A stretch of DNA of 64,000 nucleotides from Paeniglutamicibacter psychrophenolicus (GTDB lineage Bacteria; Actinomycetota; Actinomycetes; Actinomycetales; Micrococcaceae). Of this stretch, positions 49,754 through 56,228 are shown piece after piece. The DNA lies in NCBI RefSeq assembly GCF_030812255.1, contig NZ_JAUSSH010000011.1, positions 1 to 64,000 of the forward strand, in the 5' to 3' direction. Positions within the stretch are counted from its first letter, which is position 1, and each line of letters starts with the position of its first letter. A program made the position numbers and the translations under genes. Under the pieces are notes generated by a model that worked only from the letters and a program-made list of their open reading frames with translations, ran no database searches and was not told the DNA's origin.

Positions 49754-50005
49754 GTGCCTGAATCCAAGACCCGTCGGAAGAACCGCAAGCCACAGGGCGG
49801 CAGCAACACGGCGGCCTACGACAAGCCGATGCCCAAGTGGTACAAGCCGGTCATGTTCGGCCTGATGATCCTGGGACTCATCTGGATCATGGTCTACTAC
49901 CTTGCCCAGACCGCATTTCCGATCCCCGGCATCGGCGGTTGGAACATCGTGATCGGGTTCGGCATTGCCATGGTTGGTTTCTTCATGACCACGGGGTGGC
50001 GCTAG
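49754..50005 (+). CDS. crgA: Cell-division protein CrgA
   Basis: An 83-residue membrane protein with two helices. A basic N-terminus (PESKTRRKNRKPQG) and KPMPKWYKPVMFGLM precede the first helix; the periplasmic loop PIPGIGGWN and the second helix follow. CrgA recruits PBPs and FtsQ/FtsI to the division site in actinobacteria. The GTG at 49754 has AAGGAG upstream. The same gene lies close to pknB in mycobacteria. Confidence 0.95.
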   Translation: MPESKTRRKNRKPQGGSNTAAYDKPMPKWYKPVMFGLMILGLIWIMVYYLAQTAFPIPGIGGWNIVIGFGIAMVGFFMTTGWR

Positions 50006-53010: not shown

Positions 53011-53976
53011 TCAGCGCGCCGCGACTGTCTTCCGGTAGACCGTCCCACGGCGGACCACCTTGAAACCCAGCCGTTCGTAGAGCCCCAGTGCCCCAGTGGG
53101 GCTCTGGGCATCCACCGACAGGTCCACCTTGGTGAATCCGTCGCCGAAGGCCGCAGCGACCACCGTGGAGAGCGTCCATGCCGCATACCCGAGGCCCCGC
53201 GCGGCCCGCGCGGTGCCCACGCGGGAAATGTACAGCTCCTTGTCAACCCATTCGGCGCCCAGCACGTGGCTGAGCGCGCGTGCCGGCCGGTCCTCTCCGT
53301 GTCCCTCGAGCAGGACCCGGGAATAGATGGTCCTGAAAGAACGCGCACCGGTCATGGCCATCCACTCATCCGTGCTTTTGGGGGCCGAGCCCCAATGGTC
53401 GGCAAACGCCTCGTTGTCCAGTAGCCTGACGGCCTCGGCAATGCCGGGGGAGTATGGAACCAGCGCGGTGTCCTCCGGAACGCTGGCCGGGCGTCGATGG
53501 GCCCGGAAATCGCCCGGCGCCAGGGTCATGTCCTGGAAAAAGCGCGCCGGCTCATAACCGCGTGCCACCGCCATTGCCCCGGCACTGTGCCCCGGGGCGT
53601 TTCCCCACACGTCAATGGTGTATTCGACGCCCGGGTGTCGTTGGGCCATTTTTTCCCCGGCCCTGGCCTCAAGGACGTCCATGACCAAGGTTCCATGGCC
53701 TTGGCGCCGGTATTCGGGGGCGATTCCACCGCCAATGGAAACGCGTCCGCGTCCGTCGCGCAGCTGCTCCCCGAGCCGGAGCTGCCCGTACCCCACCATG
53801 GTGTCGTTGTCCCACAAACCGAGGGTGTCTCGTGCCGGATCGACGCCGGGTTCGTTGAGCTCCTCCAACAGGTCTTCGGCTTCGTAGAATTCCTCGGTAT
53901 CGTCGACTGCCGCCAGCTTGTTGGTCAGTTCGGTCCACGCGCCGACGTGCTCGAGGTGGATCCAGTCCTGGTGCAT
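53011..53976 (-). CDS. Tandem GNAT acetyltransferase
   Basis: A 321-residue protein with two GNAT-fold halves. The first contains IAPEYRRQGHGTLVMDVLEA (acetyl-CoA loop RRQGHG), the second TARAARGLGYAAWTLS and VDAQSPTGALGLYERLGFK. The double structure resembles mycothiol synthase MshD, but the segments around the acceptor site are not recognisably MshD. The substrate is unknown. The start at 53976 has GGGAGAA. It ends convergently 40 bp from lysE. Confidence 0.82.
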   Translation of the reverse strand: MHQDWIHLEHVGAWTELTNKLAAVDDTEEFYEAEDLLEELNEPGVDPARDTLGLWDNDTMVGYGQLRLGEQLRDGRGRVSIGGGIAPEYRRQGHGTLVMDVLEARAGEKMAQRHPGVEYTIDVWGNAPGHSAGAMAVARGYEPARFFQDMTLAPGDFRAHRRPASVPEDTALVPYSPGIAEAVRLLDNEAFADHWGSAPKSTDEWMAMTGARSFRTIYSRVLLEGHGEDRPARALSHVLGAEWVDKELYISRVGTARAARGLGYAAWTLSTVVAAAFGDGFTKVDLSVDAQSPTGALGLYERLGFKVVRRGTVYRKTVAAR

Positions 53977-54059
53977 CGAAGTTCTCCCGTGGTGTTGTGG
54001 ATTGGCCCGGCCGCGTCGGCACGCCCGCTGAATTCCAGCTTTCCAGTTTTCCGCCGTGC

Positions 54060-54531
54060 TGCACAGGTGGAGGCGGCCACGGAACCGGTCGAAACTTAGG
54101 AACATGCTGTGCACGAAGGTTATCCACAGGTGGGGATAAGGCTGTGGGTTTCGCCTCGTTTGCACCTAGATCATCGCCCTGGCGCGGTTTCGGCCATTGT
54201 GAATTACATGTGCGTAAGTTATTAACACTGTGGATAAGGAGTGTGGACAACGCGCCCGGGCGGGGCCGCGAACCCTCCGGCTTCCGCGGATTCACGCGGA
54301 TTAGTTCATACTTTCGAAGAGTACTCCCGGCTGATATTCGAACGGCGAAAAACGGCCCTGCACAGGTTGTGCACTAAGTTATCCACAGGTGTGGATGAAA
54401 TTGTGTATATTCGTTGAAAACTATCCCAAGCCAGAGCGGACCGGCGTCAGCGCGGGCGCTGGAGCCGGTCCGTTGCAGGTGAATTACATGGTTGTGAGTT
54501 ATTAACAGTGTGGATAACCCATGTGGACAAC
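54060..54531. promoter_or_regulatory. Cluster of DnaA boxes
   Basis: Six sites match the actinobacterial DnaA consensus. TTATCCACA occurs on + at 54120-54128 and 54379-54387, and on - (TGTGGATAA) at 54229-54237 and 54509-54517. TTGTCCACA occurs on - (TGTGGACAA) at 54242-54250 and 54522-54530. Two near matches are TGGGGATAA (54131-54139) and TGTGGATGA (54390-54398). The density, orientation and AT-rich patches resemble an oriC or a DnaA-titration site. dnaA and dnaN are not adjacent. Confidence 0.7.
54060..54531 (+). repeat. Duplicated block, two modules in order 1-2-1-2
   Basis: Module 1 (TGCACAGGT, TGTGCAC, GTTATCCACAGGTG) occurs at 54060-54137 and 54359-54396. Module 2 is 53 bp long, starts GTGAATTACATG, contains AGTTATTAACA, TGTGGATAA and TGTGGACAAC, and occurs at 54199-54251 and 54479-54531. 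The two copies of module 2 agree at 44 of 53 positions by my count and lie exactly 280 bp apart. Confidence 0.8.
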
Positions 54532-54556
54532 TTTTGTCCCGCTCGTGCCGATCCGG

Positions 54557-55420
54557 CTATCCAACTCGAACGTTGACGGCCCCGTACAAAGTCAAGGCCA
54601 CCAGCAACAACACCAGCAAGGTGGTGCCTGCCCATTGCATCGCGGCCTGCCTGGGGCCCTTGGGCGAATAGGCCATGACGGCCGCCACTGCCGCGCCCAA
54701 GACCATCCCACCGACATGGGCTTCCCAAGCGATTCCCGGGAAAATGAAGCCGATGGCCAGGTTGATGACGATCAGGATGACGATCTGCATCGACTGGACG
54801 CCGCGCGAACGCAAGAGCACGAACATCGCCGCGAACAGCCCAAAGACCGCACCCGAAGCGCCCAGGACCGGGACACGTGGATCGGTGATCAGCAGCACCG
54901 CAACGGATCCGCCCAGCCCGGCCACCAGGTACAGGGCAAGGAAACGCAGTCGTCCCAGCATCGGTTCGAGCACGCGTCCGCAGATGTACAGCGCGTACAT
55001 GTTGAAGGCGATGTGCCCGATGAAGGAGGTGGAGTGGGCAAAGATCGAAGTGATCATGCGCCACGGCTCGGGCTCGAAGTATCCGCTGGTGTACAGGCCC
55101 GCATAAACCAGGTGGTTGGTGAAGCTCGGGATCGTCATCTGCAGCGCGAAGACCACGGCATTGATGGCGATCAGCACGTAGGTGACGATGGGCCGGCCGT
55201 CAGTGGCCTTGCCGCCGAAGACTGTCCGCGTGCCGGGGATCTGTTTGTTGGCTTCGCGCACGCAATCCACGCATTGGGTTCCGACCGCGGCAGTCACCTG
55301 GCATTCCGGACAGGCCGGGCGGGAGCACCGCTGGCAGGTGACGTAGGAGATCCGGTCGGGATGCCTGGGGCAGACCGGGGCCTGTGCGGCCTGGTTCGGG
55401 TTGGACAGTCCATAAGACAT
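54557..55420 (-). CDS. Rhomboid intramembrane serine protease with zinc-ribbon-like N-terminus
   Basis: A 287-residue membrane protease with about six helices. The catalytic serine is in LGASGAVFG and the histidine in WEAHVGG. The first 65 residues are soluble and contain pairs of cysteines (CPRH, CQRC, CPEC, CVDC) spaced like a zinc-binding B-box. The ATG at 55420 gives MSYGLSNPNQAAQAP; AGGAG lies ten bases upstream. The substrate is unknown. It is between ppiA and the DnaA-box cluster. Confidence 0.92.
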   Translation of the reverse strand: MSYGLSNPNQAAQAPVCPRHPDRISYVTCQRCSRPACPECQVTAAVGTQCVDCVREANKQIPGTRTVFGGKATDGRPIVTYVLIAINAVVFALQMTIPSFTNHLVYAGLYTSGYFEPEPWRMITSIFAHSTSFIGHIAFNMYALYICGRVLEPMLGRLRFLALYLVAGLGGSVAVLLITDPRVPVLGASGAVFGLFAAMFVLLRSRGVQSMQIVILIVINLAIGFIFPGIAWEAHVGGMVLGAAVAAVMAYSPKGPRQAAMQWAGTTLLVLLLVALTLYGAVNVRVG

Positions 55421-55682
55421 GGAAATGACGCTCCTGTGTAAGTACATTCATGGCCCCGCTGGCACGGGGCCGGTCTTTGGTTCCCTTGGCTCGCACCCTG
55501 CGGGCGGGCCCGGACGCCTGGCCGGTTGCGGACTTCGCCTGCCCAAGGATGCAAAACGGCCCCATCCACCCACGCCGCCCACGTCATTCACTTTGCGACC
55601 GCGAGGTGAACAACAAGCGAGCGGGGCGGTCAATGGGGCCGTCCACGATCAGCGGCGCACGAGGTGCGCCGGAACCACGTGC

Positions 55683-56228
55683 CTAGACTGCAGCGACGTC
55701 GATGCTGCTGATGACGACGTCTTCCAGCGGCTTGTCGCGGCCGTCGGTCGGAACGACGTTCAGTGCGTCAACCAGCTTGCGCGAGGCCTCGTCGGTGACA
55801 TCGCCGAAGATGGTGTGCTTGCCCTGCAGCCAGGTGGTCGGGATCGAGGTGATGAAGAACTGGGACCCGTTGGTGCCCTGGCCCATCTGGATGCCGGCGT
55901 TGGCCATGGCCAGCTTGTAGGGTTCGCGGAAATCAAGCTCGGGGTTGATCTCGTCGTCGAAGCGGTAGCCCGGACCGCCGGTGCCCTGGCCCAGCGGGTC
56001 GCCGCCCTGGATCATGAAATCGGAGATGATGCGGTGGAAGATCGTGCCGTTGTACAACGGGGTGCTGACCTTTTCCTCGCCGCTGCGCGGGTCGGTCCAG
56101 GTCTGTTCGCCGGTGGCCAGGCCAACGAAGTTCTTCACGGTCTTGGGGGCGTGGTTGCCGAAAAGGTTGACGACGATGTCGCCCAAGTTGGTGTGGATGG
56201 TGGCTGTGTGCGTTGGGATTGCAGTCAT
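55683..56228 (-). CDS. ppiA: Peptidyl-prolyl cis-trans isomerase, cyclophilin type
   Basis: A 181-residue cyclophilin with FHRIISDFMIQGGDP (catalytic arginine), GSQFFITSIPTTWLQGKHTIFG and no signal peptide, so it is cytosolic. It helps fold proteins at proline bonds. The same gene lies near gyrA in mycobacteria. Confidence 0.95.
   Translation of the reverse strand: MTAIPTHTATIHTNLGDIVVNLFGNHAPKTVKNFVGLATGEQTWTDPRSGEEKVSTPLYNGTIFHRIISDFMIQGGDPLGQGTGGPGYRFDDEINPELDFREPYKLAMANAGIQMGQGTNGSQFFITSIPTTWLQGKHTIFGDVTDEASRKLVDALNVVPTDGRDKPLEDVVISSIDVAAV

Follow-up and report, generated by a model that had tools for sequence, protein, structure and literature searches.

A duplicated DnaA-box element between the rhomboid and crgA genes of Paeniglutamicibacter psychrophenolicus, with probable counterparts in much of its class

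The first 64,000 nt of contig C11 of Paeniglutamicibacter psychrophenolicus (C11:1-64000, hereinafter designated the window, from a genome of 4.57 Mb in 35 contigs) contain a dense cluster of DnaA boxes in a non-coding gap between a rhomboid-family gene and a GNAT acetyltransferase gene, 14 kb from the replication origin oriC. We read this cluster, with a probability of about 0.7, as a DnaA-binding control element that lies outside oriC and is kept across much of the class. The element is recognised by the number and spacing of its boxes, a duplicated module, a palindrome present in relatives, sequence constraint, and its place between the ppiA/rhomboid block and crgA. Its best reading is as an ancient feature of the class, and a promoter or origin role is unlikely. 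Judged from its letters, the element would bind DnaA strongly, with more consensus boxes than oriC itself.

Box cluster, module architecture and oriC

Exact boxes were defined as TTRTCCACA and near matches as sequences with one mismatch. Six exact boxes, at 54120 (+), 54229 (-), 54242 (-), 54379 (+), 54509 (-) and 54522 (-), and two one-mismatch boxes, at 54131 (-) and 54390 (-), lie inside 411 bp (54120-54530). The original prediction, of six consensus and two near boxes in about 410 bp, is confirmed, and the coordinates reproduce the order it gave: forward, near, reverse and reverse box, repeated. The window holds seven exact boxes against 0.38 expected, a count reached in 0 of 100 shuffles, and the probability of at least six exact boxes in a given 411 bp is ~9e-18, or ~1e-13 over 11,113 windows; shuffles and window probability together rule out a chance origin. 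Counting over the whole genome, as proposed with the prediction, returns 48 exact boxes, with this gap the densest exact-box cluster, no other place as dense, and a runner-up of three exact boxes at C2:39198-39355. By sequence, as a non-coding group of DnaA boxes that lies away from oriC and exceeds chance, the cluster has the form of an extra-oriC DnaA-box cluster (DBC) or titration locus. For one-mismatch boxes, the scan of this genome covered C11:1-78000 and eight small loci, and further clusters may lie elsewhere.

Read on the minus strand, in the sense of the rhomboid gene, the element comprises two copies of one composite unit. Each unit contains, in order, two tandem boxes 13 bp apart (4-bp spacer), an inverted near-box TGTTAATAA, a palindrome related to TTACACNNGTGTAATTC, a spacer of near-constant length and variable sequence, and an inverted box pair around TGTGGATAA. 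The non-DnaA partner palindrome of the module is TNACACNNGTGTNA, which has drifted in this genus; in several relatives, TGTGGATAA-like letters occupy the near-box place where this element has TGTTAATAA. Module copy 1 (54481-54530, minus strand) scores 51.7 bits on R1, a sequence-only model of the module built from 31 sequences and applied with a match cut-off of E<=0.01. It is made up of boxes TTGTCCACA (box 1, 54522-54530, minus strand) and TTATCCACA (box 2, 54509-54517, minus strand), the near-box, which reads TTATTAACA on the plus strand (54499-54507), and the palindrome TCACAACCATGTAATTC (54481-54497, minus strand), which has 3 mismatches to TTACACNNGTGTAATTC. Copy 2 (54201-54250, minus strand; 49.8 bits) has the same layout, with TTGTCCACA as box 1 (54242-54250, minus strand), TTATCCACA as box 2 (54229-54237, minus strand), the near-box TTATTAACA (54219-54227, plus strand) and the palindrome TTACGCACATGTAATTC (54201-54217, minus strand; 2 mismatches to TTACACNNGTGTAATTC). 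The near-boxes TTATTAACA, at 54219 and 54499 (+), and the conserved palindromes at 54201-54217 and 54481-54497 (-) had escaped the original prediction. R1 finds exactly these two units in the genome, both of them members of its training set; apart from the 2-3 mismatches that separate both palindromes from the 17-mer TTACACNNGTGTAATTC, they have every feature of the module.

Counted from coordinates, box 2 and the reverse box of the inverted pair are 130 bp apart in unit 1 (pair TTATCCACAGGTGTGGATGA, 54379-54398, plus strand) and 109 bp apart in unit 2 (pair TTATCCACAGGTGGGGATAA, 54120-54139, plus strand). The same spacings, 129-130 and 108-109 bp where found, recur in nine same-genus named loci. 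Two 76-nt copies are 74% identical at a spacing of 280, and a 28-nt repeat is 82% identical at a spacing of 259; from these repeats, the two units look like a duplication. The spacer of unit 1 also holds an inverted repeat of 17 nt around a 2-nt loop (54437-54472), much of it kept in near relatives, which is possibly a terminator or structural hairpin.

Properties shared with and distinct from oriC bear on whether the cluster could itself be an origin. The dnaN-dnaA gap at C11:67695-68683 (both genes named by Pfam) lies 14 kb away, in accordance with the expectation that oriC would be found beyond gyrB and more than 10 kb off, and contains 2 exact and 5 one-mismatch boxes. The cluster is box-rich and AT-rich (56% G+C in the gap, 53978-54556, against 67% across the window, as predicted for non-coding, locally AT-rich DNA), its lowest 60-bp G+C of 0.37 resembles the 0.38 of oriC, and TTATTAACA and inverted box pairs are common to both. 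The raw cumulative GC skew has a local minimum at the cluster (window ~54000) rather than at oriC, and likewise in the complete genome G003 (C1 ~3111000). Strand-corrected skew at four-fold sites, however, cannot separate the sites, whose log-likelihoods are 2.7 and 0.9 units lower than that of the best point, and the genes from dnaN to the rhomboid gene are mostly co-oriented with one conserved exception; GC skew neither supports nor excludes an origin at the cluster. Of the DnaA-trio-like repeats of an unwinding element, looked for as letter patterns, TAGTAG is absent from the cluster and occurs once in oriC, at 68440, but AT-richness is similar in the two. A plain duplicate of oriC was rejected on weight-matrix scores of at most 3.1 in oriC against 72 at the modules.

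Two further box groups stand near replication genes. The interval between dnaA and rpmH (C11:70185-70343; L009:10185-10343) has five one-mismatch boxes, consistent with dnaA autoregulation. A second cluster, with 3 exact and 4 one-mismatch boxes, lies at C2:39101-39355 (L005:1404-1658) upstream of a dnaB gene identified by Pfam; its three-box spacing recurs in three other genomes (G003, G013, G014) and matches the mycobacterial Rv0057 DnaA region. The dnaB frame (L005:1842-3008, plus strand) aligns with no more than positions 1-33 of the DnaB_C profile and then continues into sequence that by eye is intein-like.

Conservation and gene neighbourhood

Within the genus, the boxes are the most strongly constrained part of the gap. 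The orthologous gap, whose conservation the original prediction had singled out as a check, retains 4-6 exact boxes in 14/14 same-genus genomes. In an alignment of 15 rows, invariant columns number 65/72 in boxes, 18/18 in near-boxes (all 9 columns of each copy) and 74/461 elsewhere; box and near-box columns together (83/90 against 74/461) give a Fisher p of 1.6e-45. The rows are not independent, since L020 and L046 resemble one species and L041 is nearly identical to the window.

Beyond the genus, a rhomboid-protein scan of genome contigs supplied the best 80 of 437 loci (hereinafter designated the named loci), each reaching up to 10 kb either side of the rhomboid gene and actinobacterial by title except one. 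The exception, L063, is titled Sporosarcina beigongshangi; it has Arthrobacter-type gene order and the element, and is possibly a mislabelled or contaminated genome. Exact boxes number 211 in the 0.9 kb after the rhomboid gene and 47 in the rest, a density of 2.87 against 0.031 per kb, or 92-fold. A 50-bp weight matrix refined on the 80 gaps exceeds 30 bits in 68/80 loci (66 with the match inside the 1.1 kb that follow the rhomboid gene) and has no match above 10 bits upstream of any rhomboid gene in the named loci; the matrix was trained on the gaps, so only its absence elsewhere counts as independent. Nine loci have no gap match above 5 bits (L087, L090, L104, L105, L107, L112, L117, L118 and L119). 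Extra copies above 30 bits lie 1.2-3.4 kb downstream of the rhomboid gene in L074, L087, L093, L096, L104 and L106, weaker ones reach 3.8 kb, and Sinomonas loci have up to three copies.

The palindrome, scored at 9 or more of its 10 fixed letters, is present in 54/80 gaps and 6/987 control 1-kb pieces, mostly 20 bp from a box. A search for the exact palindrome in 39 relatives gave 3 matches: two lie in the rhomboid gap, and the third is upstream of an NrdH-like gene of the glutaredoxin family (L194:1501-1517, genome G043), where it stands beside other inverted repeats. These matches give no clue to the partner protein.

At class level, R1 matches 205/296 genomes in 81/106 genera, mostly once per genome. 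Among 181 genomes of the phylum outside the class (198 searched minus 17 listed as own, family, order or class), 29 match at the same cut-off, mostly weakly, and since only two exceed 30 bits we claim conservation for the class only. A class survey of rhomboid genes yielded 70 regions (62 of 114 genomes with a rhomboid match), of which 41 have at least two boxes with at most one mismatch within 700 bp. Streptomyces, assigned by chaplin genes in 9/9 genomes and 0/3 others, has 3-4 exact boxes in the rhomboid-crgA gap in all nine chaplin-bearing genomes, and no boxes at the second rhomboid copy that was fetched. Scores on R1 are poor in Streptomyces, and where the palindrome would stand there is a conserved GTCACACCGGCGTCAAC-like sequence. 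The R1 matches of two Streptomyces genomes (G073:C1:4406352 and G150:C1:4028435) lie 86-97 kb from dnaA, opposite to the side that holds the rhomboid gap; they may represent another DnaA cluster, perhaps a site near dnaB. The Streptomyces link therefore rests on position, boxes and the palindrome-like variant.

In the window, the 580-bp gap (53977-54556) is bounded by the rhomboid-family gene (54557-55447, minus strand, PF01694), whose closest named matches are from Arthrobacter sp. C2 and Paeniglutamicibacter, and by the GNAT acetyltransferase gene (53011-53976, minus strand, PF00583). We place the start of the latter at ATG 53976, with GGGAGAA upstream; the same frame is open up to GTG 54165. 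On the rhomboid side follows a cyclophilin-type peptidyl-prolyl isomerase gene (ppiA-like; 55683-56228, minus strand, PF00160) in conserved synteny. On the other side, crgA (49754-50005, plus strand, PF06781) is the conserved convergent neighbour, 4 kb away here and adjoining the element in many relatives. Both crgA and a module of more than 30 bits are present in 58 named loci. Every one of these has the module between the rhomboid gene and a convergent crgA, and 32 have crgA no more than 1.2 kb off. The GNAT gene follows the element in only part of the 80 named loci.

The element is not tied to the rhomboid gene itself. In one genus (g49: G060, G098, G125 and G112) of family f22 the module lies away from the rhomboid gene, although other genomes of the family (G166, G083, G156 and G146) have it there, which rules out dependence of the element on that gene. 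In two g49 loci from mycobacteria-like genomes, L203 and L222, the module still adjoins crgA, the best rhomboid match is elsewhere, and the other neighbour is a PH-domain, Rv0010c-like gene, with a ppiA-like gene next to it. The place between the ppiA/rhomboid (or Rv0010c) block and crgA is thereby common to the window, the 58 loci and these two genomes.

The module also keeps its distance from dnaA. Of 44 genomes in which dnaA was mapped, 34 were measured; those left out have their match at the far end of a contig (G120, G216, G181, G258, G162, G078), dnaA and module on different contigs (G095), weak matches (G073, G150) or no R1 place (G015). The module lies 9.0-55.8 kb downstream of dnaA, on the dnaN-gyrB side, in 31/34, including eight genomes of 1.2-1.6 Mb in which it is 9.0-9.3 kb away. 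In five of the six contig-end genomes the R1 match probably falls on the opposite side of dnaA. The same placement, definite or probable, is seen in several genomes of 1.2-1.4 Mb (G216, G181, G258, G162, G078, G108), where the match may mark another DnaA site or an element that has moved.

Proposed role and competing explanations

The original prediction had offered a DnaA titration or regulatory site as one possibility, and this has gained ground: the boxes are kept throughout the genus, their density is unique in the genome, and the positional equivalent in mycobacteria binds DnaA (PMC7738170). In the mechanism we propose, the element would be copied within ~14 kb of initiation, just after the fork leaves oriC, so that the cell's high-affinity DnaA sinks would double at once. 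Free DnaA at the new origins would be lowered and initiation coupled to the rest of the cycle. We further suppose that TNACACNNGTGTNA is occupied by another DNA-binding protein, probably a homodimer, which may bring the tandem triple together with the distal inverted pair in a single looped complex, a role comparable to that of IHF at E. coli datA and DARS2. The complex would store DnaA, with a change of DnaA nucleotide state as a further option. BldD was considered as the palindrome partner; its half-site is TNACNC, and the half-sites resemble the palindrome, but with a 1-bp centre, and BldD is not claimed.

Several observations weigh against the control element. In P. psychrophenolicus, DnaA binding is a prediction from the boxes, and no partner protein was identified. 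The palindrome has drifted in this genus, mostly below the 9/10-letter cut. In relatives, 14/80 named loci have no module above 30 bits in the gap, 91/296 class genomes have no R1 match, and 24/70 class rhomboid regions have no box within 700 bp, including all four f34 genomes fetched as regions; in the two Streptomyces genomes G073 and G150 the R1 match is not at the rhomboid gap. Three genomes depart from the usual distance to dnaA (G108 at 31 kb and G243 at 84 kb, both on the opposite side, and G046 at 178 kb), and G015 keeps the cluster at the rhomboid gene, 108 kb from dnaA. In mycobacteria, dnaA and site mutants had longer cells and an unchanged initiation rate (PMC7738170, discussion), a result at odds with simple titration through this one site, so that a coordination role, or redundancy with other clusters, is as likely. 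In B. subtilis the effect was strong only when all six clusters were removed, and the role of the clusters was played down (PMC5295017).

An improbable alternative is a structural or segregation element, in which DnaA, a second protein or both organise the origin domain or block convergent transcription, with sequestration of DnaA incidental. The tail-to-tail gap and the second conserved palindrome would suit such a role. So would the spacing of box groups in Micrococcaceae (43, 96, 107-111, 129-130, 142 and 186-188 bp), with steps close to helical turns and a best period of 11.1 bp (p ~0.015; subsets 0.008 and 0.032), a post hoc figure for six distance classes picked after looking. Against it, the most conserved positions are the DnaA boxes and near-boxes, the mycobacterial copy is among the regions most enriched for DnaA (PMC7738170), and the sole hairpin noted is that at 54437-54472 (parS-like signatures were not sought).

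It is slightly less probable still that the element is an operator at which DnaA regulates a neighbouring gene, be it the GNAT gene here, Rv0010c in mycobacteria, or crgA or the rhomboid gene elsewhere. The element does lie upstream of a gene here and in two mycobacteria-like genomes, DnaA acts as a transcription factor elsewhere (PMC8203912), and HigA2, which recognises ATCAC(N)4-7GTGAT, is reported to bind that site in M. tuberculosis, Rv0010c being up in the HigA2 mutant (PMC11205783). But the downstream gene changes while the element stays, and the convergent crgA leaves a tail-to-tail gap without evident promoter, which also recurs between the rhomboid gene and crgA in 9/9 Streptomyces. 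Expression of Rv0010c and Rv0011c, moreover, was unchanged in M. tuberculosis dnaA mutants (PMC7738170, discussion). A simple promoter was rejected for GNAT, which is not found after the element in many loci, and for crgA, which is convergent.

A second origin, auxiliary or relic, as the original prediction had also entertained, is very improbable: the similarities to oriC given above are offset by an oriC with its own dnaA and dnaN 14 kb away, by 80 named loci that contain neither dnaA nor dnaN (up to 10 kb either side of the rhomboid gene), where such a neighbour in a relative would have marked the main origin, by the missing TAGTAG and by strong constraint on the boxes where a relic would be expected to decay.

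Extending the control element beyond this genus, we tentatively propose, at somewhat less than even odds, that most actinobacteria share one ancient two-protein DnaA switch. It would be a composite element near crgA, at which DnaA, bound to phased boxes, and a dimeric regulator, bound to TNACACNNGTGTNA, form a looped complex, setting free or active DnaA after each initiation and tying replication to division. The cryptic M. tuberculosis site, one Streptomyces cluster and the Paeniglutamicibacter repeat would then be the same element.

Relation to known DnaA-binding sites

DnaA-box clusters outside oriC are a known kind of site, and a site or set has been described in mycobacteria and in Streptomyces. 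What appears to be new is the class-wide element, its two-motif syntax, its deep conservation and the link to the mycobacterial site. A literature search found no paper with both 'DnaA boxes' and 'crgA', and the six papers with Rv0010c and DnaA were by title all on M. tuberculosis, subscription papers lying outside both searches. In our judgement, once-per-cycle control of initiation is less well known in actinobacteria than in E. coli. A compact conserved two-motif element offers a deletable target in harmless soil bacteria and Streptomyces, its second DNA-binding protein is worth seeking, and it gives evolutionary context to an M. tuberculosis DnaA site that is recurrently mutated in clinical isolates and was described as lacking an obvious counterpart.

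The closest comparison is with that mycobacterial site. We take Rv0011c to be crgA, with ppiA adjoining Rv0010c, and 2mmu to be M. tuberculosis CrgA, to which CrgA of L222 is identical at 88/93 positions by our count. Hicks et al. (2020) reported binding of M. tuberculosis DnaA at Rv0010c-Rv0011c in vitro, and of DnaA in vivo in M. smegmatis, among the five most enriched DnaA regions, and saw no obvious correspondence for the site in other species (PMC7738170). Four of the five regions match box clusters found here: oriC, this gap, the dnaB-upstream cluster and the rpmH-dnaA interval. Like the site in both mycobacteria, the L203 and L222 loci have a DnaA-box-like cluster in the same gene place, with crgA, the PH-domain gene and a ppiA-like gene. 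A palindrome 65 bp upstream of the Rv0010c start is recurrently mutated in clinical isolates (PMC7738170), and in L203 and L222 TCACANNNNTGTGA (1503-1516) ends 69 bp short of 1585, where the Rv0010c-like gene probably starts; we infer that the two palindromes are the same. The letters of L203 also fit the HigA2 form (PMC11205783), although HigA2 is not claimed as a general partner. The Paeniglutamicibacter element, which unlike the mycobacterial site is duplicated, has consensus boxes and lies next to a rhomboid gene, appears to be its positional equivalent, a counterpart.

In Streptomyces coelicolor, DnaA-box clusters were reportedly described by Smulczyk-Krawczyszyn in 2006. Their names, we assume, are H69, H24 and D78, and by its cosmid name H69 may presumably be the rhomboid-crgA gap, an unconfirmed assignment. 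The boxes in the Streptomyces gap resemble those clusters, which have been likened to datA and credited with the repression of untimely initiation (PMC5742627; mentioned in PMC10950094). Streptomyces nevertheless differs from the Paeniglutamicibacter module in its poor R1 score and in the GTCACACCGGCGTCAAC-like sequence in place of the palindrome.

The clusters of B. subtilis likewise repress untimely initiation in a datA-like manner (PMC5742627) and lie outside the origin, and their joint removal leads to early initiation; they differ from the Paeniglutamicibacter element in being six sites, and one review states that no cluster with a significant regulatory role had been identified (PMC5295017). 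E. coli datA, DARS1 and DARS2 are similarly non-coding DnaA sites outside oriC, with IHF as the second protein at datA and DARS2 (PMC5742627). DnaA control at the Paeniglutamicibacter element would parallel theirs, but the gene context is different, and a nucleotide switch is not in evidence. Origin-proximal density of DnaA boxes in E. coli is said to favour titration (PMC12371093); there the boxes accumulate regionally near the origin, whereas Paeniglutamicibacter has one compact element.
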